NCBI GenBank assembly: GCA_945787715.1
Contig: CALZJE010000010.1
Location: 17,141-81,140, forward strand
Reading direction: 5' to 3'
DNA: 64,000 nucleotides
Origin: an uncultured Ectothiorhodospiraceae bacterium
Lineage (GTDB): Bacteria; Pseudomonadota; Gammaproteobacteria; S012-40
Position 1 is the first letter of the stretch. Every line of letters begins with the position of its first letter. This document shows, in pieces, positions 9,086-64,000 of the stretch. Both the position numbers and the translations under genes were made by a program. The notes beneath the pieces are model-generated. The model saw only the letters and a program-made list of their open reading frames with translations, ran no database searches and was not told the DNA's origin.

Positions 9086-9919
9086 GTGGATAAAAACTAT
9101 TTTTCAACAATATTATTATCACTCACTCTAGCATTTTCTCATGCGTCTTTAGCAACAAGTATTTCTAACTTTAACGACTGGGGTATTAACACCTCCGACC
9201 TCTCTAGTTCGCATTCGGGTGTTCACTCTATCGAGGAAGATCAACATTCAAATTATCTCAACCCAGGCTACGGTGGCCAAGAATATGATGCGGAAGCAAT
9301 TTACACTACTTGGGATAATGACTATTTGTATGTAGGTATAATGACAGGCCGTCTGCAAAATCCTACTACGGGATGGGCACCAGGCGATATTGCTTTCGAT
9401 CTAGGTTCCGATAACTCATATGAATTTGGATTGGTTACATCAAGTGCAGCTGGCTCCAATGCATCGACCGCAGGAATTGGTAATCCAGGTGAATTTTATA
9501 TTGTGAGTGAATGGAACTATGGTGTTTGGGATGAAAATGGAAATCATGTTGGAGTGAATAGCCCATTAGTAGATATAAACCATCCAACGAGTGTAAAAAC
9601 CGGAGCACTATCTGGATCAGCTGCCAACTTTACATATAGCGCGCTTAAAGAAAATGGGACTTGGCTTAGTTACGGAAACTGGAGCGACGATAAACACTAT
9701 TTTATCTCTGCAAAAATTGACTTGGATCTATTTCTTGAAACAGGCGATACTCTTGAAGGTGGATTCTCCATCCATTGGGCAGCAAACTGCAACAACGACT
9801 GGTTGTTATTAGATGTGCCAGCTCAACCAACGACTGTCTCTGAACCTGTAAGTTTATCTCTTATGTCACTTGGTCTATTGGGATTGGGCTTACACAGAAG
9901 AATACAAAAAAGAAAATAA
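9086..9919 (+). CDS. PEP-CTERM-type secreted protein
   Basis: Signal peptide (LLSLTLAFSHASLA) and C-terminal SEPVSLSLMSLGLLGLGLHRRIQKRK: SEP motif, hydrophobic helix, basic tail. Confidence 0.8.
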   Translation: MDKNYFSTILLSLTLAFSHASLATSISNFNDWGINTSDLSSSHSGVHSIEEDQHSNYLNPGYGGQEYDAEAIYTTWDNDYLYVGIMTGRLQNPTTGWAPGDIAFDLGSDNSYEFGLVTSSAAGSNASTAGIGNPGEFYIVSEWNYGVWDENGNHVGVNSPLVDINHPTSVKTGALSGSAANFTYSALKENGTWLSYGNWSDDKHYFISAKIDLDLFLETGDTLEGGFSIHWAANCNNDWLLLDVPAQPTTVSEPVSLSLMSLGLLGLGLHRRIQKRK

Positions 9920-18879: not shown

Positions 18880-19091
18880 TGATGTTTGTTTCCAACTCGT
18901 TAGTGAATTTGATTTATGTTAACTGAGCGTCAAATTTATCAGTGGGTGCTCAATTTTGGTTTTTTTCATGACTGTGATTTATACTTTTTCTGCTTCGCCA
19001 TCACAAAACTAGCACCCTTGGGCTTCATACAGGAAAACTATTTATTTTGGTATTGATATTGCTGATTAACAACTGTCTGGAGGACATGATA

Positions 19092-19739
19092 ATGATAAAA
19101 ACCAACCATAGTTTAGTTAGAGCTTCGTTACTTACTGCAATAATTTTTTCATCTCTAGCCAATGCCGAGTCAATTGTGTATGAAGGATCAATTGGCTTAG
19201 CTGATAACCCACTTGGAACAGTGAGTGGATTAGTGGATGGCTCAGGATGGATTGATTCTGACGCTTCTAATATCGATTTTTGGAGTTTTAGTGTAGGAGC
19301 TGGTGGATTAGCAGTGGATGTATGGGCCACTCGGACAGATTCTGCGTTCGACCCAGCATTCTCACTTTATTCTGGTATAACCTCTGCCGACGAAATTACA
19401 TTCAAAAATTTTGGTAGTTTTGCTGAATTGACTTACCTCAAATCCGCCGATGATGACATTTCTCAACCCCCGGAGTTGAATTTAGGTCCTTTTGCCGATC
19501 CAGCTTTATTTGACATTTATCTTTCCGAGGGAAGTTACACAATTGCAATTGGTGGCTATGAGAATGGTGATGTTGGACCATATGGCTATGATTTATTTAT
19601 AGCGAATGCTGGAGAGGCTATATCAGTATACGGAGTGGTCCCAGCAGTCCCCGAACTCTCCACTTGGGTCATGATGAGCTTTGGTTTAGCCGGTATAGGC
19701 TTGATGGTTCGGCGTAAACAGAAAACTACTGAGATGTAA
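19092..19739 (+). CDS. PEP-CTERM-like secreted protein with variant (PELSTW) sorting tail
   Basis: Signal peptide TNHSLVRASLLTAIIFSSLANA; tail VPELSTWVMMSFGLAGIGLMVRRKQKTTEM; DVUA0089-like DPAFSLYSG...GSYTIAIGGYENG segment. Confidence 0.7.
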   Translation: MIKTNHSLVRASLLTAIIFSSLANAESIVYEGSIGLADNPLGTVSGLVDGSGWIDSDASNIDFWSFSVGAGGLAVDVWATRTDSAFDPAFSLYSGITSADEITFKNFGSFAELTYLKSADDDISQPPELNLGPFADPALFDIYLSEGSYTIAIGGYENGDVGPYGYDLFIANAGEAISVYGVVPAVPELSTWVMMSFGLAGIGLMVRRKQKTTEM

Positions 19740-51363: not shown

Positions 51364-54300
51364 CTATCGATTCGCATTTTCAAGTTTCTTGTGGTTAAAC
51401 GCGTAATACATTACCGGTATAACTAGGAGCGTCAGTATTGTCGAAACCAAAATACCGAAGATTAAGGCTATTGCAAGCCCATTAAAGATCGGATCATCAA
51501 GAATGAACAAAGCACCAAGAATCGCCGCGAGTGCTGTCAAAGCAATTGGTGTTGCTCTTACTGCAGCTGCACGGATAACAGCCTCCTGAAACTCCACTCC
51601 GCGTTTAATTTCTACATTAATAAAATCAACCAACAGAATAGAGTTACGCACAATTATACCCGCCAGTGCAATCATGCCTATCATGGAAGTTGCGGTGAAC
51701 TGAGCACCAAACAAAGCATGGCCAGGCATAACCCCAATGATAGTCAACGGAATGGGAGCCATAATAACTAGCGGAACCATATAGGAGCGAAACTGTGCAA
51801 CCACTAACAAATAGATCATAATCAAACCAACTGAGTAAGCCAATCCCATGTCACGAAATGTCTCGTAAGTCACTTGCCATTCGCCATCCCATTTTATACT
51901 GTACTGATAAGGATTCGACGGCTGATTAATCAGATACTGCTCAATGGGTTCATCAAGCAAGGGAGATAAAATTGTATCGCCCAACTGCGCGAGCACATCA
52001 AACATGCCATACAAAGGACTGTCCAGCTCACCCGCGAGATCACCCGTAACAAAAACTACCGGCAATAAATCCTTGTGGTAAATACTGTATTCACGTTGAC
52101 TTTTTACAACACTCGCCACTTCAGCCAGAGGAATCAGGTTTCCATTTTGTGCCCTTACTTCCAGCGCAAGTAATGTAGAAATCTCAGCTTTATCTGCGGT
52201 ACTAAATTCTAGACGAATAGGTACTGAGTATTTTACATGCGGAGTGTGCAAAGTGCCCACATCAGAACCGTGGAAAACGGTAGCGATAGCTTCTGCGATA
52301 TTTTTCTGGTTAACACCCAGTTTGGCTGCTTTTTGTCGATCCACTTTGATGATCCATTTTGCAGAAGGTGTTTCCACGCTGTCATCTACATCAATAATGT
52401 CGTCAGTTTGCTCCAATATTTCACGTATTTTTTTAGCAACCTGGATTTGTCCGTTGTGATCAATACCGTAAACTTCAACAACCAAAGGCGCCTGTACCGG
52501 CGGGCCTGGTGGCACTTCAACAATCTTTACATTAGCATTATATTTTTCGCCAATAGCCTGTAACGGTTCACGAACAGACAATGCGATTTCATGGCTTTTA
52601 CGATCTCGTAATTTTTTGTCCTGAAGATTAACCAGAATATCTGCCATATTTGCTCCTTCTCGCAGATAATATTGACGCACTAGACCGTTAAAATTAATCG
52701 GTGCAGCAGTGCCAATATAATATTGGTAATCTGTCACTTCAGGAACGCCGGAAAGATAAACACCTAGTTCTGCAAGAACACGCGCAGTCTGTTCCAGGCT
52801 TGATCCTTCCGGCATATCAACAACCACCTGAAACTCAGATTTGTTATCAAACGGTAACATTTTTAATACAACCAGTTTGATACCCGCCAGGCCAACAGAG
52901 CCAGCAATCAATACAACAATGCTCAAAGTTAACAACCAGCGCTTTCCCCTACCCTTTTTACCGTGTAAAAATGGGCGCACAACTCCATTAAAGAATTTGT
53001 ATAAACGCGTGTTGCTTTCGTCCGTTTCAGCACTGTGTTCATGTTTACTATTTTTCAAAATTTTTAACGTCAGCCAAGGCGTTACAATAAATGCTATTGC
53101 AAGTGAAATGACCATACCCATGCTGGCATTTATGGGTATTGGGCTCATGTATGGCCCCATTAATCCACTAACAAATGCCATGGGTAACAAGGCTGCTACG
53201 ACAGCAAATGTTGCAAGAATCGTAGGGCCACCTACTTCATCAACAGCTGCGGGAATAGCATCAGCAAGACTTTTATTACCAATTTTCATATGGCGATGAA
53301 TATTTTCAACGACCACGATGGCATCATCCACTAAGATTCCAATAGAAAAAATCAAAGCGAACAGGGATACCCGATTCAAGGTGAACCCCCAAACCCAAGA
53401 AGCAAATAAGGTGAGTGCCAAAGTAACAAAAATTGCCACTCCGACAATGATCGCTTCACGCCATCCTAGTGCAAACAAAACAAGTAAAACAACAACAGCT
53501 GTCGCCAAGAAAAGTTTTTGAATCAGGGTCATGGCCTTGTCGTTTGCCGTTGCGCCATAATTTCGAGTAACTGTTACATTAATACCATCCGGTATAACAA
53601 TGCCTTTTAGCTGCTCCAATCGATCGATGACTTGCTCGGAAACATCAAACGCATTGACACCTGGTTTTTTCGCGATTGCAACAGTAACCGCGGGGAATAC
53701 CCCATTGCTGGCAATATTTTTATCACCAGCGGCTGGCCCAGTACCAAACCAGACGTATTGCTCAGCTTGATCTGGTCCGACACTAATGTCTGCGACATCG
53801 CGTAAGTGAATCGGTGCATCATCAACCAAAGCAACAACCAAATTTTTGATTTCTTCAACATTACTGAGAAACGTACCCGCTTGAATGAGAATCTCTTCGT
53901 TATTTTTTACAATTGAGCCAGCTTTTTGCGAAGTGTTTGCTGATATTAAAGCATATTTCAACTGATCCAGATCAATGCTATAACCTGCTAAGCGTTGCGG
54001 ATCAAGTAATACACGAACCACATGATCAGGGCCACCGATGGTGTAAATGTCTCTTGTACCGGGCACACGTTTTAATTCGGCTTCAATCGCGTGGGCTACC
54101 TTCTGCAGGTCGTAGCCGGCCCGTTGCTCATCTTCCGTCCAAAGGGTTAGTGTAACAATCGGTACATCATCAATCCCTTTGGGTTTGATAATTGGCTGAC
54201 CAACGCCTATGTTTTGAGGTAGCCAATCCTGGTTTGAATATATTTTGTTGTACAATCGAACAATGGCCTGAGTGCGATCTTCACCCACAACAAATTGTAC

Positions 54301-54597
54301 AGTAAGCACCGACATACCAGGGCGTGAAACCGAATAGACGTGTTCGATACCCTCTATTTCAGAAAGCACCTGCTCTGCCGGTGTGCTAACAATGTTTTCA
54401 ACTTCAATAGCAGTAGCACCAGGGTAAGGAATAAATACATTGGCAAAGGTGACATTAATTTGTGGCTCTTCTTCACGCGGTGTAACCATGACCGCAAACA
54501 CACCTAGCAAAAAACCAACTAAAGCCAAGAGAGGTGTTATTTCTGAATGCAAAAACTTTTTGGCGATAGAGCCAGAAAAACCTAAGCGGTCACTCAT
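51364..54597 (-). CDS. RND efflux transporter permease
   Basis: 1077 aa; NVTFANVFIPYPGATAIEVENIVSTPAEQVLSEIEGIEHVYS...GILVDDAIVVVENIHRHM...ARAAVRATPIALTALAAILG-like. Confidence 0.95.
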   Translation of the reverse strand: MSDRLGFSGSIAKKFLHSEITPLLALVGFLLGVFAVMVTPREEEPQINVTFANVFIPYPGATAIEVENIVSTPAEQVLSEIEGIEHVYSVSRPGMSVLTVQFVVGEDRTQAIVRLYNKIYSNQDWLPQNIGVGQPIIKPKGIDDVPIVTLTLWTEDEQRAGYDLQKVAHAIEAELKRVPGTRDIYTIGGPDHVVRVLLDPQRLAGYSIDLDQLKYALISANTSQKAGSIVKNNEEILIQAGTFLSNVEEIKNLVVALVDDAPIHLRDVADISVGPDQAEQYVWFGTGPAAGDKNIASNGVFPAVTVAIAKKPGVNAFDVSEQVIDRLEQLKGIVIPDGINVTVTRNYGATANDKAMTLIQKLFLATAVVVLLVLFALGWREAIIVGVAIFVTLALTLFASWVWGFTLNRVSLFALIFSIGILVDDAIVVVENIHRHMKIGNKSLADAIPAAVDEVGGPTILATFAVVAALLPMAFVSGLMGPYMSPIPINASMGMVISLAIAFIVTPWLTLKILKNSKHEHSAETDESNTRLYKFFNGVVRPFLHGKKGRGKRWLLTLSIVVLIAGSVGLAGIKLVVLKMLPFDNKSEFQVVVDMPEGSSLEQTARVLAELGVYLSGVPEVTDYQYYIGTAAPINFNGLVRQYYLREGANMADILVNLQDKKLRDRKSHEIALSVREPLQAIGEKYNANVKIVEVPPGPPVQAPLVVEVYGIDHNGQIQVAKKIREILEQTDDIIDVDDSVETPSAKWIIKVDRQKAAKLGVNQKNIAEAIATVFHGSDVGTLHTPHVKYSVPIRLEFSTADKAEISTLLALEVRAQNGNLIPLAEVASVVKSQREYSIYHKDLLPVVFVTGDLAGELDSPLYGMFDVLAQLGDTILSPLLDEPIEQYLINQPSNPYQYSIKWDGEWQVTYETFRDMGLAYSVGLIMIYLLVVAQFRSYMVPLVIMAPIPLTIIGVMPGHALFGAQFTATSMIGMIALAGIIVRNSILLVDFINVEIKRGVEFQEAVIRAAAVRATPIALTALAAILGALFILDDPIFNGLAIALIFGILVSTILTLLVIPVMYYAFNHKKLENANR

Positions 54598-55640
54598 TAT
54601 TTTGACTCCGCTTGTTGCTTAAGATAAATACCAGCGCGCACGGGATCGAGAGCAACATTTTCACCGGCAGTTATGCCGGCCAATACTTCAGTTTTATCGC
54701 CGAAACGATGACCTAATCGGATTTGTCTGAGCATTACCCGGTTTTGAGCATTAACAACATATACAGCAACAACTTCACTACGATGAACTATGGCAGCATT
54801 AGGAATTAGCAGGCGTTCCGCTTCATCAATGGTAAAATCAACCTTCACTAACATACCCGGTAGTAGATTAGGAACCTTTGCTGGCAAGTTGGCGCGTACG
54901 CGAAATGTGTGGCTTGTCGGATTAGCGTAAGGAAACGTAATCATGCTTTTTACGGGAATAATTTTTCCTGCATTTTCTGCAAAGCGCACACTCGCTTTTT
55001 GATATTTTCGAATTGGATTGATAAAAGCCTGAGGAATATCCGTATTGACGCGAAGCTCGTGCAAGGAAAAGCCAGTCATTACCGGCTGTCCCATTTGAGT
55101 GGTTTCGCCCACTTGCACATGGCGTTCTACGACAACACCACTAAACGGAGCGCGAATCACAGTATTATCCACTTGTTCTTGAACTTCAGTTATCTTTGCT
55201 TCACTGGCAGCAACTCGAGCTTCAGCAGCTTTTAGCGCCGCTTTTGCCTTATCAAAGTCTGCATTTGAGACAATTTTTTCCTTAACCAGGCCATTGATAC
55301 GCTTATATTCGAGTTGTGCATCTTTATAGCCCGCCTTGGCTTCATTTAAGCCAGCTTTAGCGGTACGCAAGCGAGCATTATATTCGTTATCTCGAATGCG
55401 CAGAATGACTTCACCTTTTTTTACGTAATCATTTACATCAAAGTTGATTTCAGTTACTCGTCCGGATACTTGTGCAGAAACTGTCGCTTTATTGATCGCT
55501 TCGACAACGCCATCAAAAGCTCGGGTTTGAGGAGATTTCTCCAACTTGACCGTGGCGATATCAAACGGTAGGTTTTGTTCCGCCAGAAGTATTTGAGGGC
55601 ATATTAATATAAATGGGATCAACGATTTTATTAGGCGCAT
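54597..55640 (-). CDS. RND efflux periplasmic adaptor (membrane fusion protein)
   Basis: GVVEAINKATVSAQVSGRVTEINFDVNDYVKKGEVILRI...VIRAPFSGVVVERHVQVGETTQMGQP; overlaps permease start. Confidence 0.93.
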   Translation of the reverse strand: MRLIKSLIPFILICPQILLAEQNLPFDIATVKLEKSPQTRAFDGVVEAINKATVSAQVSGRVTEINFDVNDYVKKGEVILRIRDNEYNARLRTAKAGLNEAKAGYKDAQLEYKRINGLVKEKIVSNADFDKAKAALKAAEARVAASEAKITEVQEQVDNTVIRAPFSGVVVERHVQVGETTQMGQPVMTGFSLHELRVNTDIPQAFINPIRKYQKASVRFAENAGKIIPVKSMITFPYANPTSHTFRVRANLPAKVPNLLPGMLVKVDFTIDEAERLLIPNAAIVHRSEVVAVYVVNAQNRVMLRQIRLGHRFGDKTEVLAGITAGENVALDPVRAGIYLKQQAESK

Positions 55641-56793: not shown

Positions 56794-57486
56794 CTTTCAA
56801 TAACTTTTATACTTCCTGAGGCTTTAGTGTTTTGTTTTAAACAATTTAACAATCGTCTTTTCTGTGCGTATAATTAGTTGATCTAGTTATTCGATGAGTT
56901 GGGAGAATTACTGAGATTTCATGACTTTTCGTTATTCCGTCAACCTATTGTAATACTGTGCATTATACCAGTATCAACAACGTATACATATCCATGTATT
57001 GACAGTACCCTATTTTTAGAAGCAACTGCACTAAGCCCCTGGTTTCACTCCGCCATTGTCGAGCGCGTATTTAAGCAAACGTGCCTATAAAGCATGTTGC
57101 TCTCACCGCTGCCTCGCCAAAGATGGCTTCACAATTGACCACTAAATCCAATCGACATCGATTCTTTAAGCCGTGAAAACGTGTCAAAGTTATCCGAGGC
57201 CGGAACTCTAGCACCGTGATAAGCGTCACAACATCGTAGTCAGATGCCACTGAAAAGCCAATAACTCTTGTCGTAATATTTTACAGTTGAGACCTAACCC
57301 CAGATTAGCATAATAATAATATACTTAATTTTCAAGTGGTTGATAGATATTCATGAGGTGGCCCGGTTTCTGCTGAAGTAGTATAAAGCAGGTTTACAAC
57401 TTTTCAAATTTAGCTTTGACTACTTGTGATAGATAAATCGGAAATGGAAATGGTTATTTCGCAACAAGGAAAAAGGAGATTGAAAA

Positions 57487-58302
57487 ATGAAAATCAATTT
57501 AGTACGCAGCATAATCGCGGGGGGAGTACTCACCTTAATTGCAGGACAGGCAAGCGCCGTGACACTCTATTGGGACCAATTTGCAGGCTTTAATGATAAC
57601 TCTGAGATTCCAGCCAATAGCATAGACTTTTCTGGTCAACTGACCGATCCCAAAGCTCCAGCAAATGTATACTCTGACGTTGCCTGGCTTCCCGCCCCTT
57701 CTAGCCCTCAGAGCACACTGAATATTCAGGGTTTTGATTCTGGCGTTTTGGGCGCGTTTGATGTGGGTGTTACACATATTATATCAACGCTGACCGCAAC
57801 AAATAACGTGATCCCATCCGGATATACGTATAGTGTCGACATCGACGCCAATCTCGGATTCTACAGTGATGCAGCGCGCACCCTTTCACTTGGAGGCATA
57901 TTCCCGGACTTTAACACGATCAATATTACTTACCTCGAAACCGTCAATGATGGGGTATGTGAACCTGACAATAACCCCACAGGCCCAGCAGGCGGTAATT
58001 GTGACGATCTATACACTTTTGCCTTAGGGGGATTTGATGCTTTAGAGTTTAACTACTTGGGGCAAGATTACGCGCTACTCTTCGATATTCTGCCAGGTGC
58101 AGGCGCAGTAAGATTTCCCGCAGGCGGAAATCAAATATGGACGTTAGAGCCAGATGTAGGTGACAGCAATATATCCCAATTACATGTAACAGCCACACTT
58201 GTTACGGTCCCAGAGCCAGCCACGCTGGCCTTGATGGGACTAGGGCTCGCGGGCCTTGGCTTTGCCTCGCGTCGTCGCAGACTGACCGGCATGGCCGCGT
58301 AA
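57487..58302 (+). CDS. PEP-CTERM sorting domain protein (canonical)
   Basis: Signal peptide IIAGGVLTLIAGQASA; tail VPEPATLALMGLGLAGLGFASRRRRLTGMAA; RBS aaaaggaga before ATG. Confidence 0.93.
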   Translation: MKINLVRSIIAGGVLTLIAGQASAVTLYWDQFAGFNDNSEIPANSIDFSGQLTDPKAPANVYSDVAWLPAPSSPQSTLNIQGFDSGVLGAFDVGVTHIISTLTATNNVIPSGYTYSVDIDANLGFYSDAARTLSLGGIFPDFNTINITYLETVNDGVCEPDNNPTGPAGGNCDDLYTFALGGFDALEFNYLGQDYALLFDILPGAGAVRFPAGGNQIWTLEPDVGDSNISQLHVTATLVTVPEPATLALMGLGLAGLGFASRRRRLTGMAA

Positions 58303-58357: not shown

Positions 58358-59788
58358 TTAAACGAAATAGCTAAATTTTCGCTCGTAGTCAAGTGTCATA
58401 CTGAAGGGAAATTGCTCATAAGACCAGACGTGCAGCTGCTCAGGCAAGACGGTGCCCGGCAACAGCACTGCTAAACGTGGCCGCAGGTCGTCATCATCCG
58501 AAAGGTAACCACGCCTGAGCTGAATATGCACGATCAGGCTATCTGCCCTGTATTCCAAACGAAAGGCCCCGGTGAGTCTGAGAGCGATATCCTGGTGGAC
58601 ATACAATGCGTCCTTATATTGCCCTACATGCGTACCATCCACTAGCTGATCTTTATCACGACCTTTTAGGGCCATAATAGGTAAGGTTAATTTCTCCCTA
58701 AATGAGATACCCACTTGATTGCATGCCCTCTCAATATCCTCTTGCGACAACAGGCGCGCCACATCCCCCGTCTGGTAACGCATCAAAGGAAGGGCGGCTT
58801 GCGTATCGGCCATCGAAATGGTGAGTTGGCCGTAACCTGGTTCGTCTGCCTCCAGGGTTTCAACGTATAGCCGTAGCGGGTTGTAGACGAAAAGCATGGG
58901 CAGTGGTGCCGTCTCTGGCTCGAGTCCAAACAGAGCCTTGAAAAAATCCTGATTGGCATGGGCCAAACGGCGCAATTTGATGGTCTCTGGTGTCTCATAA
59001 AAGAGGTTGAGGCCGAGCTCCCCGATGCCCATGGAGGAGCCGATCAGCCCCATGCTCGGGTCATCGGCATTCAGCTGGAATTGACCAGCGAGATAATTGC
59101 GGTAATTTTCACCAAAGGTTTCCTCCCCGATAATCAGGTGTGTTCGGTAACGTCCCCAATCCAACCCCTGGTCGCGTGCATAATCGGTCAGTAGCTTCAA
59201 GAATAAGGGGTCACCGACCAGGATAATCTGCTCATAGAAACGCCCGATTTCGCTTGCTAGCGCGACAGCCATGTCCTCGCGTACGCTGGTTTCCGCAATG
59301 GTGACGCTATTTGAGGAAAAGCGGACACCCATGGGCAGGCAGTTAATCAATAAGGTTTTTTTTTGATCTACCTGAAATGCGTATTGGAGGCCAAGATCAA
59401 TTTCATCGGCGGCATGCCTTGCTTGTCTCCAGGTACTCAAACCAAAAGCCAAGCGGGTTCGCCCTTGACCAGAACTGGTCAGTACACCAGCCAGTTCGTC
59501 TAGAGTGCCGGGTACACATAGCTCTTCCAATGAGAAACGCCCGAACGTGTTGTCCTTGTTCAGCGTCGGGCATAACGAGCGGAAGTCCTTAACAGATTGG
59601 ATCTGCTCTGGGTTCAAGTCATGCGCGGCTAAGATTGTCCTGTAAGCAGAGACAGATGCCACAGCTCGACGAAAGGCACGTAAGACACGTCGCTCACCAC
59701 AGTCGAGGAGCTTCTGCGGTCTTGACCTGCTCAGTGCGTAGAGCATTAACTTTCGCAAACCTTTTTTATAATTAATCATCGCGCGCAC
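58358..59788 (-). CDS. PaaK/CapK-like adenylate-forming (phenylacetate-CoA ligase superfamily) protein
   Basis: LTSSGQGRTRLAFGLSTWRQARHAAD...LIIGEETFGENYRNYLA...GSSMGIGELGLNLFYETPE...LPLMRYQTGDVARLL...MALKGRDKDQLVDG. Confidence 0.75.
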   Translation of the reverse strand: MRAMINYKKGLRKLMLYALSRSRPQKLLDCGERRVLRAFRRAVASVSAYRTILAAHDLNPEQIQSVKDFRSLCPTLNKDNTFGRFSLEELCVPGTLDELAGVLTSSGQGRTRLAFGLSTWRQARHAADEIDLGLQYAFQVDQKKTLLINCLPMGVRFSSNSVTIAETSVREDMAVALASEIGRFYEQIILVGDPLFLKLLTDYARDQGLDWGRYRTHLIIGEETFGENYRNYLAGQFQLNADDPSMGLIGSSMGIGELGLNLFYETPETIKLRRLAHANQDFFKALFGLEPETAPLPMLFVYNPLRLYVETLEADEPGYGQLTISMADTQAALPLMRYQTGDVARLLSQEDIERACNQVGISFREKLTLPIMALKGRDKDQLVDGTHVGQYKDALYVHQDIALRLTGAFRLEYRADSLIVHIQLRRGYLSDDDDLRPRLAVLLPGTVLPEQLHVWSYEQFPFSMTLDYERKFSYFV

Positions 59789-60350: not shown

Positions 60351-61091
60351 TTAATCCAAATAATCAGACTCTAATCCTTCAGCAAAAGTTAAAAAAAGAT
60401 CTGGATACTTTTGACGCACACCCAATTCAAGATCCGCAATCTTTGCCAAGTAAGGTGTAACTGGCCCGTAATAATCAACTTCTGGACCAATGGGTTTAAA
60501 ACCAAACTCATAACGATGTAATAGTCTTAACAGAGTTTTTTCCATTGCAGCAAACCAGGCTGTAATGCCTCGACGCTTACTCTCTTGGTATAAAGTTTTA
60601 TAAAGTCCAAGCACTATTTCCGGCCTGTGTCGGCGTTCTATAATTCCTTTATTGATTTTCATTGCAGATGTCTCATTGGTATTGTCACTCGTACCAAATA
60701 AACCGTCCCCGCTTCGTCGTCGATAGGATTTTACAAGCGCCAAACGTGAAATTTCCGCAACATTAATGAACAATGGATTTTCATGAAGATCAAGACTTTT
60801 ATATTCATCAAAAAATTCACAGTGTTCAACTAAAGGAAAGCCAAAGCGAGAAGGTAATACCATGCGAACAGTACCCACTAATAATCCAACTTTATTTACT
60901 GCACCTACATGTATCGCAAAATCATCAAAAACATCTTCCTCCCTCTTGTCAGGATAATCTTCCTCGCGCAAAAAGCCAGTTTCCTCACAATAAATTTTAT
61001 AGCGTAATGCATAACTATCTTGCAAATATTTTGTATTATCAATGATAAAAAAATCGAAATGTGATGGCGATGCAACATTTCCGGTTACCAT
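60351..61091 (-). CDS. PEP-CTERM/exosortase system-associated acyltransferase (likely starts at MVTGNVASPSHFDFF; ORF-track start 61214)
   Basis: FDFFIIDNTKYLQDSYALRYKIYCEETGFLREEDYPDKREEDVFDDFAIHVGAVNKVGLLVGTVRMVLPS...EISRLALVKSYRRR...YKTLYQESKRRGITAWFAAMEKTLLRLLHRYEFGFKPIGPEVDYYGPVTPYLA. Confidence 0.88.
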   Translation of the reverse strand: MVTGNVASPSHFDFFIIDNTKYLQDSYALRYKIYCEETGFLREEDYPDKREEDVFDDFAIHVGAVNKVGLLVGTVRMVLPSRFGFPLVEHCEFFDEYKSLDLHENPLFINVAEISRLALVKSYRRRSGDGLFGTSDNTNETSAMKINKGIIERRHRPEIVLGLYKTLYQESKRRGITAWFAAMEKTLLRLLHRYEFGFKPIGPEVDYYGPVTPYLAKIADLELGVRQKYPDLFLTFAEGLESDYLD

Positions 61092-61291
61092 ACTCGTCTC
61101 CAAACTAATTCTCTCGGTAGCTAGAAGGCTGACTGAGAAAAGAGAGCCTACTGCGGAAAAGCTATAAATTTTATATCGGATAAATCCGATAGCTTTCCGT
61201 GAATTGCAACACAAAATATCAATATTCGCTTGAACATAAGGAGTTTGAGTTAGACCACAGTTGGAACTCGATGCTTATCTCATTTAATTAA

Positions 61292-62128
61292 TTAAGCATA
61301 AGAATTGTGAATTGATTGTGTATTGTTTTGTTTGAGATCTGCGACTAACTCTGGCTTTAATCCCTTTATGTACTCCGCGTAAAGGGCAGGACACTGTCGA
61401 CGAACACCTTCTTCAATTACTGCAAGTTCTGCTAGGTAAGGGGTAACGGGTCCGTAATAATCAACTTCTTCTCCGATGGGATTAAAGGCAAACTTGTAAC
61501 GATAAAGTAATCGTAACAAGGTTTTTTCCATTGCTGCGAACCAATGTGTAATGCCACGACGTTTGCTCTCTTGATATAAGATTTTATAAATACCAAGTAC
61601 AATTTCGGACCGATGCCGACGGTGCGGCACATTAGCATTAGCCTTTGTTTGAATTTCATCGTCCTCACTGATTGCCAGATCGTACAAACCATCACCTGCA
61701 CGGCGTCGGCATGACTTTATAAGTGCCAAACGCGAAACTTCTGCGGCAGTGGACAATAGAGGATTCGCAGGATTTACATAATCTGCACATTTGTCAAAAA
61801 GTTTGCAGTGCTTAAACAGGGGAAGTCCATGCGAAGAAGGCAGTACTAACCGTGCAGTACCCACTAACACACCAGCTTTATTAACAGCACCTATGTGAAT
61901 CGCTGATTCATCAAAAACATCCTTTTCAAACCGTTCTGGGTAATCTTTAGTAGAAAGAAAACCTAATTCTTCACAATAAATATCGTAGCGCAACGCATAA
62001 CTATCCGCTAAATAACGTGTATCATCGATAACAAAAAATTCAAAATGCGATTCAACCGCATCACCTCCAGTTTCTTTACTGCATTCCAAGTTAATAATTC
62101 TCCGGTTGAAATCTGCGTTAATGGCCAT
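61292..62128 (-). CDS. PEP-CTERM/exosortase system-associated acyltransferase, paralogue 2
   Basis: Strongly similar to 60351-61091 throughout (DSYALRYDIYCEELGFLSTKDYPERFEKDVFDESAIHIGAVNKAGVLVGTARLVLPSSHGLPLFKHCKLFD...). Confidence 0.88.
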   Translation of the reverse strand: MAINADFNRRIINLECSKETGGDAVESHFEFFVIDDTRYLADSYALRYDIYCEELGFLSTKDYPERFEKDVFDESAIHIGAVNKAGVLVGTARLVLPSSHGLPLFKHCKLFDKCADYVNPANPLLSTAAEVSRLALIKSCRRRAGDGLYDLAISEDDEIQTKANANVPHRRHRSEIVLGIYKILYQESKRRGITHWFAAMEKTLLRLLYRYKFAFNPIGEEVDYYGPVTPYLAELAVIEEGVRRQCPALYAEYIKGLKPELVADLKQNNTQSIHNSYA

Positions 62129-63781
62129 TTATCCTTAAAAGCAAGTTTAATTTTTAAAAGCGGGATTGAAGATTGTTTCTAAATTGCAGGGTTAATGCCA
62201 TAGAATTATGCCTAACATAAAAATTAGATTGGCAAATGTGATTTAGTTCACTTGAATGGTGTATAAAACCTACGCTTGAACGCTGACCTTTGACGATTTA
62301 CTTAAAGACTCAATGACTTACTATGACTTCTGATATTCAACAACGAAGTCTGAACAGGTAATGGAAAATTTGAAAAAATAAATATCGCAAGTCTCTCGCA
62401 AGGATTTAAAATAAAGAAAGCAGCGCCGGACGCTAATTTAAAACTGATTTTGTCGTGTAACAGAGACACAAGACGTAGTCACTCATGTCTACAATCTTTT
62501 CATAATATTCAAATATTAATAATTTCTCTTTATACACTTAATTGTTTGTCAATTTTCTATTCATTAAGAGCACTTCCCTTTTTTAATTAATATTATCTGT
62601 CAACGCTTTCATAGTTCGTTTAAATGGTTTGTCGATCAAACTTTCATCATAATGAATGAATCGATTGCCAGGATGTTTTACGATGAAATTGGTAAAACCA
62701 TATTGTCACAAGTAGAAACAACCCAAAAAAACTAATAGTCAATGCCCGCCAAAAAAATCATTAAACTGGTGAAGAATTGAGATTACTCGATTCTTTCTCA
62801 ATACGAATACGTTTATAAACAAAATGGAATAAGTAAAAAATTGCAGTACAACGATGATATAAAAAACCAGTCAATCGATTCTACGACTGGAAAACTCGTA
62901 CAGATGACGAGGACATAAATGCGCGAGCCAATAGATCCCAAAGAATATTCTCTTTCACTATAAGGGCGAATAGATGACAGCAGCTATCTTATATCCTCTT
63001 CATAACTTCTCTTATATTACAGGATGAATCATATACGACTGATGGTCCTGGGATCTGGATTTTTACATATCAGGTTACTAAACTTTATCGGCCACATCTT
63101 AGTCAAACCATTCAAGCCAAATAAATAACATCTGCGTTAATCCGAGAAAATTCTTCAACCCATGAGTTAATGCTCAACTACTGAGTTTTATCGCACTATA
63201 AATTCATGTCAAACTGATCTTTAATTGGGCTACACAGAGTAAAAAAAATACACTTGATGCAACATCAGCCAATTTCATGCAACCTTAATAATCTCACAAC
63301 AAAACAAATCAACAAATTGTCGGTTATATTTACACTATTATTTGTGCGATAATCCATCAAGCATCACATTCCCTAGAATTTTACTAAGCATTTCAAAATG
63401 ATAGCCTATGATGGCATCAAGTCTAAAAATATACCGGGACGGAAATTTTTACACTATCCTATTTAACAATAGTTCATTTTATGTTTTGTCTCTATGGAGA
63501 GATAACAACGACATATATAGTGTACAAAAAAACAAAACCGAACCAAATTCTGAGTATCTTAAGTAATTATTAACATACTAATATTTGTGAATTATTCTTA
63601 AGATTTTTAATCTCGCTCCATTTTAAAAACAGAGAGTAATTAGACAATACTTTTGTCGCTATTTGTAAAATAAATTCATTGGCGTATTACTTGCTGAGCT
63701 ATCTTATGAAAGAGAAATAAATTTTTTAGATCTTTCAATGAAAACATCAAATTAACTAATTAATTAGAAGAGAGGTGTATC

Positions 63782-64000
63782 ATGAAAAAGTCAATTATTT
63801 CAGCCGCCGTGGCTTCATTAGCAATTGTGTCTGGTAGTGCGTTGGCAGACCTATCTAATGATGCTTCTGCAAAAGTCTATGTTCAAGTAAGCCCTAATGT
63901 TGCTGTTATGTTTACAGAAGCACATGTTGATTTGGGTTCAGTGCAGATCGGAAAGTTTGGTGGTACTGCAACTTTCCGTGTTGATGCTAACGAAGAAGCT
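63782..64000 (+). CDS. Secreted protein, N-terminal part only (runs off the right edge)
   Basis: RBS agagaggtg, ATG at 63782, signal peptide MKKSIISAAVASLAIVSGSALA then DLSNDASAKVYVQVSPNVAVMFTEAHVDLGSVQIGKFGGTATFRVDANEEA; open to 64000. Confidence 0.85.
   Translation, partial: MKKSIISAAVASLAIVSGSALADLSNDASAKVYVQVSPNVAVMFTEAHVDLGSVQIGKFGGTATFRVDANEEA

Follow-up and report, generated by a model that had tools for sequence, protein, structure and literature searches.

A tandem pair of TIGR03694 acyltransferase genes in a recurrent neighbourhood with a PaaK-like ligase and a THxN-type PEP-CTERM gene

The window analysed here (G000:C10:17141-81140; 64,000 nt, to which all coordinates refer unless a contig is named) contains two neighbouring genes for acyltransferases of the family TIGR03694 (exosort_acyl), copy A (60351-61091, minus strand) and copy B (61292-62128, minus strand), the latter with 1.9 kb of upstream sequence before window and contig end together. 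Both open reading frames (ORFs) are intact and on the same strand, and their products share 60% identity across 249 aligned residues (E 6e-112, far above chance), confirming the tandem pair of related enzymes reported in the first-pass annotation. Translation of A probably starts at ATG 61091, which is preceded by GGAG, rather than at TTG 61214, as far as which the frame is open (60351-61214, minus strand); with the former start the intergenic distance is ~200 bp. In the hidden Markov model check proposed for the family assignment, A and B score 189.1 and 186.2 bits, both over the curated cut-off (111.95 bits), and neither lacks the conserved core, each retaining 26 of the 29 columns that at least 80% of 38 relatives conserve. 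Over most of its length the catalytic half is nearly identical, while the loop following RRRxGDGL, correctly singled out as variable (~2 identities in 21 residues), and the C-terminus are strongly divergent. Both copies look constrained at the codon level, because nonsynonymous divergence (dN, NG86 method) is 0.32 and synonymous divergence (dS) ~1.7, close to saturation.

The AlphaFold model of A has a mean predicted local distance difference test score (pLDDT) of 74, with blocks within residues 11-80 at 86-95 and a disordered loop after RRRxGDGL (<50). Its best structural matches are LasI, FeeM and other acyl-homoserine lactone (AHL) synthases (FeeM 2g0b: E 3.6e-7, template modelling score 0.58/0.73, for the A model only), with similarity to BjaI and RpaI as well, so that the suggested comparison with FeeM and LuxI did return a fold of that type. 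A is over the gathering score of PF21926, which was not reported for B. The sequence-profile match of A to AHL synthases covers ~60 residues of the N-terminal core only, where R30, D53, D56 and R76 align with AHL synthase positions; E113 and R116 we take to be equivalent to LuxI positions. Autoinducer synthase models were not reported for A or B in Pfam and NCBIfam scans (E 0.01). FeeM- or LuxI-like chemistry would therefore be expected.

The neighbourhood, in a point missed by the first-pass annotation, does not isolate the pair from the PEP-CTERM system. A THxN-family PEP-CTERM protein gene (57487-58302, plus strand; NF038125, 90.1 bits, cut-off 85; PF07589) lies ~2 kb away, and between them is a gene for an uncharacterised, presumably adenylate-forming PaaK-like ligase (58358-59788, minus strand). 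A and B are not orphans but part of a conserved module with these two genes, because distant bacteria show the same small set of genes. One scan of genome contigs gave eight related loci (L047-L054), in seven of which the same acyltransferase clade is adjoined by one family of PaaK-like ligase (L047, L049-L054; ligases 45-68% identical to that of the window). A THxN-type PEP-CTERM gene similar to 57487-58302 is also present in all five ligase loci with a long enough contig. Its identification is by THxN model score in L047 and L051, as in the window, and by similarity in L049, L050 and L053. In L047 (Nitrosomonadales metagenome-assembled genome FeB_15) tviB-like, tviC-like and prsT genes come before the module, in which the ligase gene is flanked by two synthase genes and followed by the PEP-CTERM gene. 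In the UppL7s bin, L049 carries a synthase gene and the ligase together with a divergently oriented PEP-CTERM gene, and a second synthase gene lies on a separate short contig that has no ligase (L048). In Rugosibacter and other Rhodocyclales (L050-L054) a single synthase gene precedes the ligase, with the PEP-CTERM gene after it in L050, L051 and L053 and the contig stopping inside the ligase in L052 and L054. LolA-like, ATP-binding cassette (ABC) ATPase, DUF1302 and two LolC/E-like permease genes adjoin the Rhodocyclales modules, suggesting lipid handling from gene content. Immediately ahead of RRR, the second FeB_15 synthase (L047, 5556-6362) has two in-frame copies of AEISRLAVSKSY, a repeat that is either genuine or an assembly artefact.

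The module was not recovered in sister genomes: 12 further host-family members lack the ligase, and across 369 genomes of the class (own included) its other relatives are only distant (E 1e-21 to 1e-32), and inspection by eye recognised no acyltransferase gene next to them. The other TIGR03694 loci retrieved from relatives gave no ligase homologue either. The window ligase resembles PaaK and FlxY-type ligases in motif pattern (TSSGxG, RYxTGD and GRxKD, conserved in 8 relatives) and predicted fold, its low-confidence model (pLDDT 62) having adenylate-forming enzymes as best Foldseek matches (BT_0428, E 3e-10). Unlike them, it falls far under all curated cut-offs (PaaK model TIGR02155: 28.1 bits, cut-off 646), lacks a Pfam match and has a different conserved neighbourhood. 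A C-terminal DYERKF is present wherever the sequence of a relative is complete.

Upstream of the PEP-CTERM gene, a PrsR-box-like motif 1 (TGTCGTAATATTTTACA; 57269-57285, plus strand) is followed after 73 nt by a sigma-54-like -24/-12 site (TGGCCCGGTTTCTGCT; 57359-57374, plus strand; 9 of 11 positions, GG/GC core). This matches in motifs and spacing the arrangement published for proteobacterial PEP-CTERM genes by Haft et al. 2006 (PMC1569441), in which a motif 1 ending TTTACA is separated by 32-92 nt from a sigma-54 site; the genome encodes both PrsK and PrsR, and RpoN dependence of a PEP-CTERM gene has been demonstrated (PMC9850573). The arrangement also precedes the PEP-CTERM gene in L047, L049, L050, L051 and L053 and likewise on contig C108 of the same genome (spacer 96 nt). 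The window motif is an exact match to the consensus TGTCGNNNTNNTTTACA, which was derived from the relatives and this genome and chosen after viewing those sequences; its 7 exact matches in the assembly (4.4 Mb, 227 contigs, completeness listed as 100) are therefore a descriptive figure, and once one mismatch was allowed a reversed control pattern had more matches than the genuine pattern. Further exact matches on C25, C44 (two), C70 and C169 mark candidate members of the PrsR regulon. Two additional PEP-CTERM genes in the window (9086-9919 and 19047-19739) lack the full arrangement; the former is preceded, at 55 nt, by a sigma-54-like site.

For A and B themselves, PrsR/sigma-54 control was rejected, motif 1 being found at neither, and the arrangement is likewise not found at the ligase gene. 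A weak sigma-54-like site upstream of B (62185-62200, minus strand; 9 of 11 positions, a score reached in 3 of 500 shuffles) has no motif 1 and may have arisen by chance. Upstream of A lies a palindrome, TATCGGATAAATCCGATA (61174-61191), a possible operator that is unique in the genome even when 2 mismatches are allowed. Known RNA elements (Rfam gave nothing up to E 1) and ordinary sigma-70 promoters (not above shuffled level) were both rejected for the A and B spacers. The large upstream spacers of the first-pass annotation hold for B, with 1.65 kb lacking a called gene, but not for A, with ~200 bp only; the separate regulation proposed there finds little support, the clear PrsR/sigma-54 element standing at the PEP-CTERM gene and not at A or B.

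In a tree of 40 proteins A groups with B (support 97/99) and the two UppL7s copies pair together (99/91), while placement of the FeB_15 copies is unsettled. C-terminal resemblance of A to FeB15_1 and of B to FeB15_2 hinted at one ancestral duplication giving A-type and B-type orthologues. Approximately unbiased tests rejected this for the protein as a whole (p 0.024) and for its N-terminal half (p 0.0007), the C-terminal half giving no decision either way. Because A pairs with B and the UppL7s copies with each other, the phylogeny indicates that pairs arose or were homogenised separately in different species; repeated duplication and gene conversion would each be compatible with the data. A tandem pair is uncommon but not unique, nor are close pairs rare, because two family genes lie within ~1.5 kb in 6 of 24 sampled genomes with TIGR03694 over cut-off (four of the six pairs same-strand; second copy slightly under cut-off in G022). 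The paralogue search recommended for this genome yielded a third, distant TIGR03694 gene (G000:C60:529-1215, L003; 175 bits, ~29% identical to A), which groups weakly in the tree with the single copy of a genus-mate.

Linkage of N-acyl amino acid synthases with PEP-CTERM/exosortase loci was described by Craig, Cherry and Brady 2011, as cited by PMC11072679 and PMC7293339. A and B agree with these enzymes in family cut-off, conserved core, GNAT/FeeM-like fold and linkage to a PEP-CTERM gene, and differ in being a tandem pair, in forming a distinct clade with a PaaK-like ligase and THxN gene, and in coming from an assembly where no exosortase was found. Compared by description, the stieleriacine cluster of Stieleria maiorica (PMC7293339) likewise combines a PEP-CTERM gene with several genes for synthases, of which two carry consecutive locus tags, but in a Planctomycete host and with tyrosine-modifying enzymes; a ligase was not found in the text searched. 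In Methylomonas LW13, mutation of ExoAT, there a single gene under study rather than a pair, led to loss of a polysaccharide band (PMC11072679). A relative has been expressed and assayed for N-acyl amides (PMC9762135). In the literature searched, mostly outside subscription journals, no description of an acyltransferase-ligase-THxN module was found, and nothing on PEP-CTERM together with phenylacetate-CoA ligase. The TIGR03694 family and its exosortase link are known, while the module, an informative conserved unit, appears undescribed in that literature.

The reading we favour, and consider fairly probable, is that A and B are N-acyl amino acid (amide) synthases of diverged specificity within a PEP-CTERM/exopolysaccharide module that includes the ligase. 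Enzyme activity, substrates, the reaction of the ligase and a shared pathway are inferred here from family, the predicted fold of A, conserved residues, recurrent neighbourhood and the cis-element at the PEP-CTERM gene. As paralogous GNAT-fold synthases, A and B would move a fatty acyl group from acyl-acyl carrier protein or acyl-coenzyme A onto the amino group of an amino acid or a comparable acceptor. The diverged loop and C-terminus could give them different acyl or acceptor preferences, and the divergence in specificity suggested by the first-pass annotation is plausible. The ligase would activate a carboxylate, belonging either to a fatty acid that supplies the synthases or to their product; the THxN PEP-CTERM surface protein would be driven by PrsK/PrsR and sigma-54; and the product may be a lipid of matrix or envelope made within the PEP-CTERM/exopolysaccharide programme. 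We prefer this reading because both copies pass TIGR03694 with the core kept, the A model matches FeeM and AHL synthases best, and the module recurs in seven loci, adjoining prsT in FeB_15 and genes suggestive of lipid handling in Rhodocyclales. The assayed relative, the ExoAT phenotype and the PrsR/sigma-54 element, with the RpoN dependence shown elsewhere, point the same way.

Several observations weigh against it. The ligase is without a Pfam match, its NCBIfam matches are weak and under cut-off, and its mean model pLDDT is only 62. Its G+C content at third codon positions (GC3) is 0.57, against 0.26-0.31 for A and B, so that ligase and pair may differ in recent history; because it also exceeds the 0.30-0.37 of four other window genes, GC3 hints at acquisition of the ligase from elsewhere. 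A and B lack the PrsR/sigma-54 element and so give no sign of co-regulation with the PEP-CTERM gene. Finally, in keeping with the first-pass description of the pair as away from an exosortase cluster, PF09721 and TIGR02602 detected no exosortase in the assembly, and the genome of the genus-mate is also without one. An exosortase is present in 10 of 12 other host-family members and in the genomes of 6 of 7 module relatives, the UppL7s bin being without. An exosortase is not obligatory for TIGR03694 genes, because 7 of the 24 genomes with TIGR03694 over cut-off have no match. The assembly does contain eight PEP-CTERM matches and, at the end of C1, EpsB_2, PrsK, PrsR and PrsT. Loss of an exosortase in an assembly gap is possible because contigs break inside prsT: the ends of C1 and C108 interrupt prsT genes, and that of C15 a prsT-like ORF.

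A and B could instead share their substrates and be redundant or dosage copies, retained for expression rather than specificity. Their grouping in the tree, the near identity of most of the catalytic half and a within-species pairing compatible with gene conversion fit such redundancy, but 60% identity with dS near saturation represents a long time for pure redundancy and the loop and C-terminus differ strongly; we regard it as unlikely. Acyltransferase and ligase might also lipid-anchor the PEP-CTERM protein or an exopolysaccharide rather than make a free N-acyl amino acid, as recurrence beside one PEP-CTERM family and the LolCDE/LolA-like genes of Rhodocyclales could suggest. This is improbable, given that the best fold matches of A are small-molecule synthases and that PEP-CTERM proteins are exported, whereas GNATs of this kind are cytoplasmic. 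A LuxI-type synthase pair for an AHL-like signal is very improbable, despite the similarity of the A model to LasI, BjaI and RpaI and the otherwise absent palindrome upstream of A that could be a regulator site: curated models place both copies in TIGR03694 with no autoinducer synthase match reported, and no luxR-type partner was noticed among the module ORFs, although luxR was not searched for specifically.

The gene set might also encode an undescribed pathway, in which a ligase-activated N-acyl amino acid would be attached to or assembled with the PEP-CTERM protein or a matrix polymer, giving a lipid-modified surface layer for which the duplicated synthases would supply two different lipid groups; to this we give little credence. 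The question of why N-acyl amino acid synthases travel with PEP-CTERM/exosortase systems is made concrete by the module, a compact testable unit in terms of the acid activated by the ligase, the products of the paired synthases and the PEP-CTERM protein as carrier.

Among other features of the genome, the broken prsT on C1 (L067) ends with the residues that start C108 (L066), so that the two contigs are probably neighbours; C108 then carries a second prsT. Two ~400-aa proteins have a GNAT-like N-terminal part (L066 6322-7539 and L004 1486-2685), the former, the only one of the two scanned, with a CRP-like C-terminal part and adjoining the second prsT and a PEP-CTERM gene. A secreted-protein-like ORF with no family match starts at the window edge (63782-64000) and is cut by the contig end. 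Resistance-nodulation-division (RND) efflux permease and adaptor genes (51364-55640), separated from the PEP-CTERM gene by a 1.8 kb gap, are probably unrelated.
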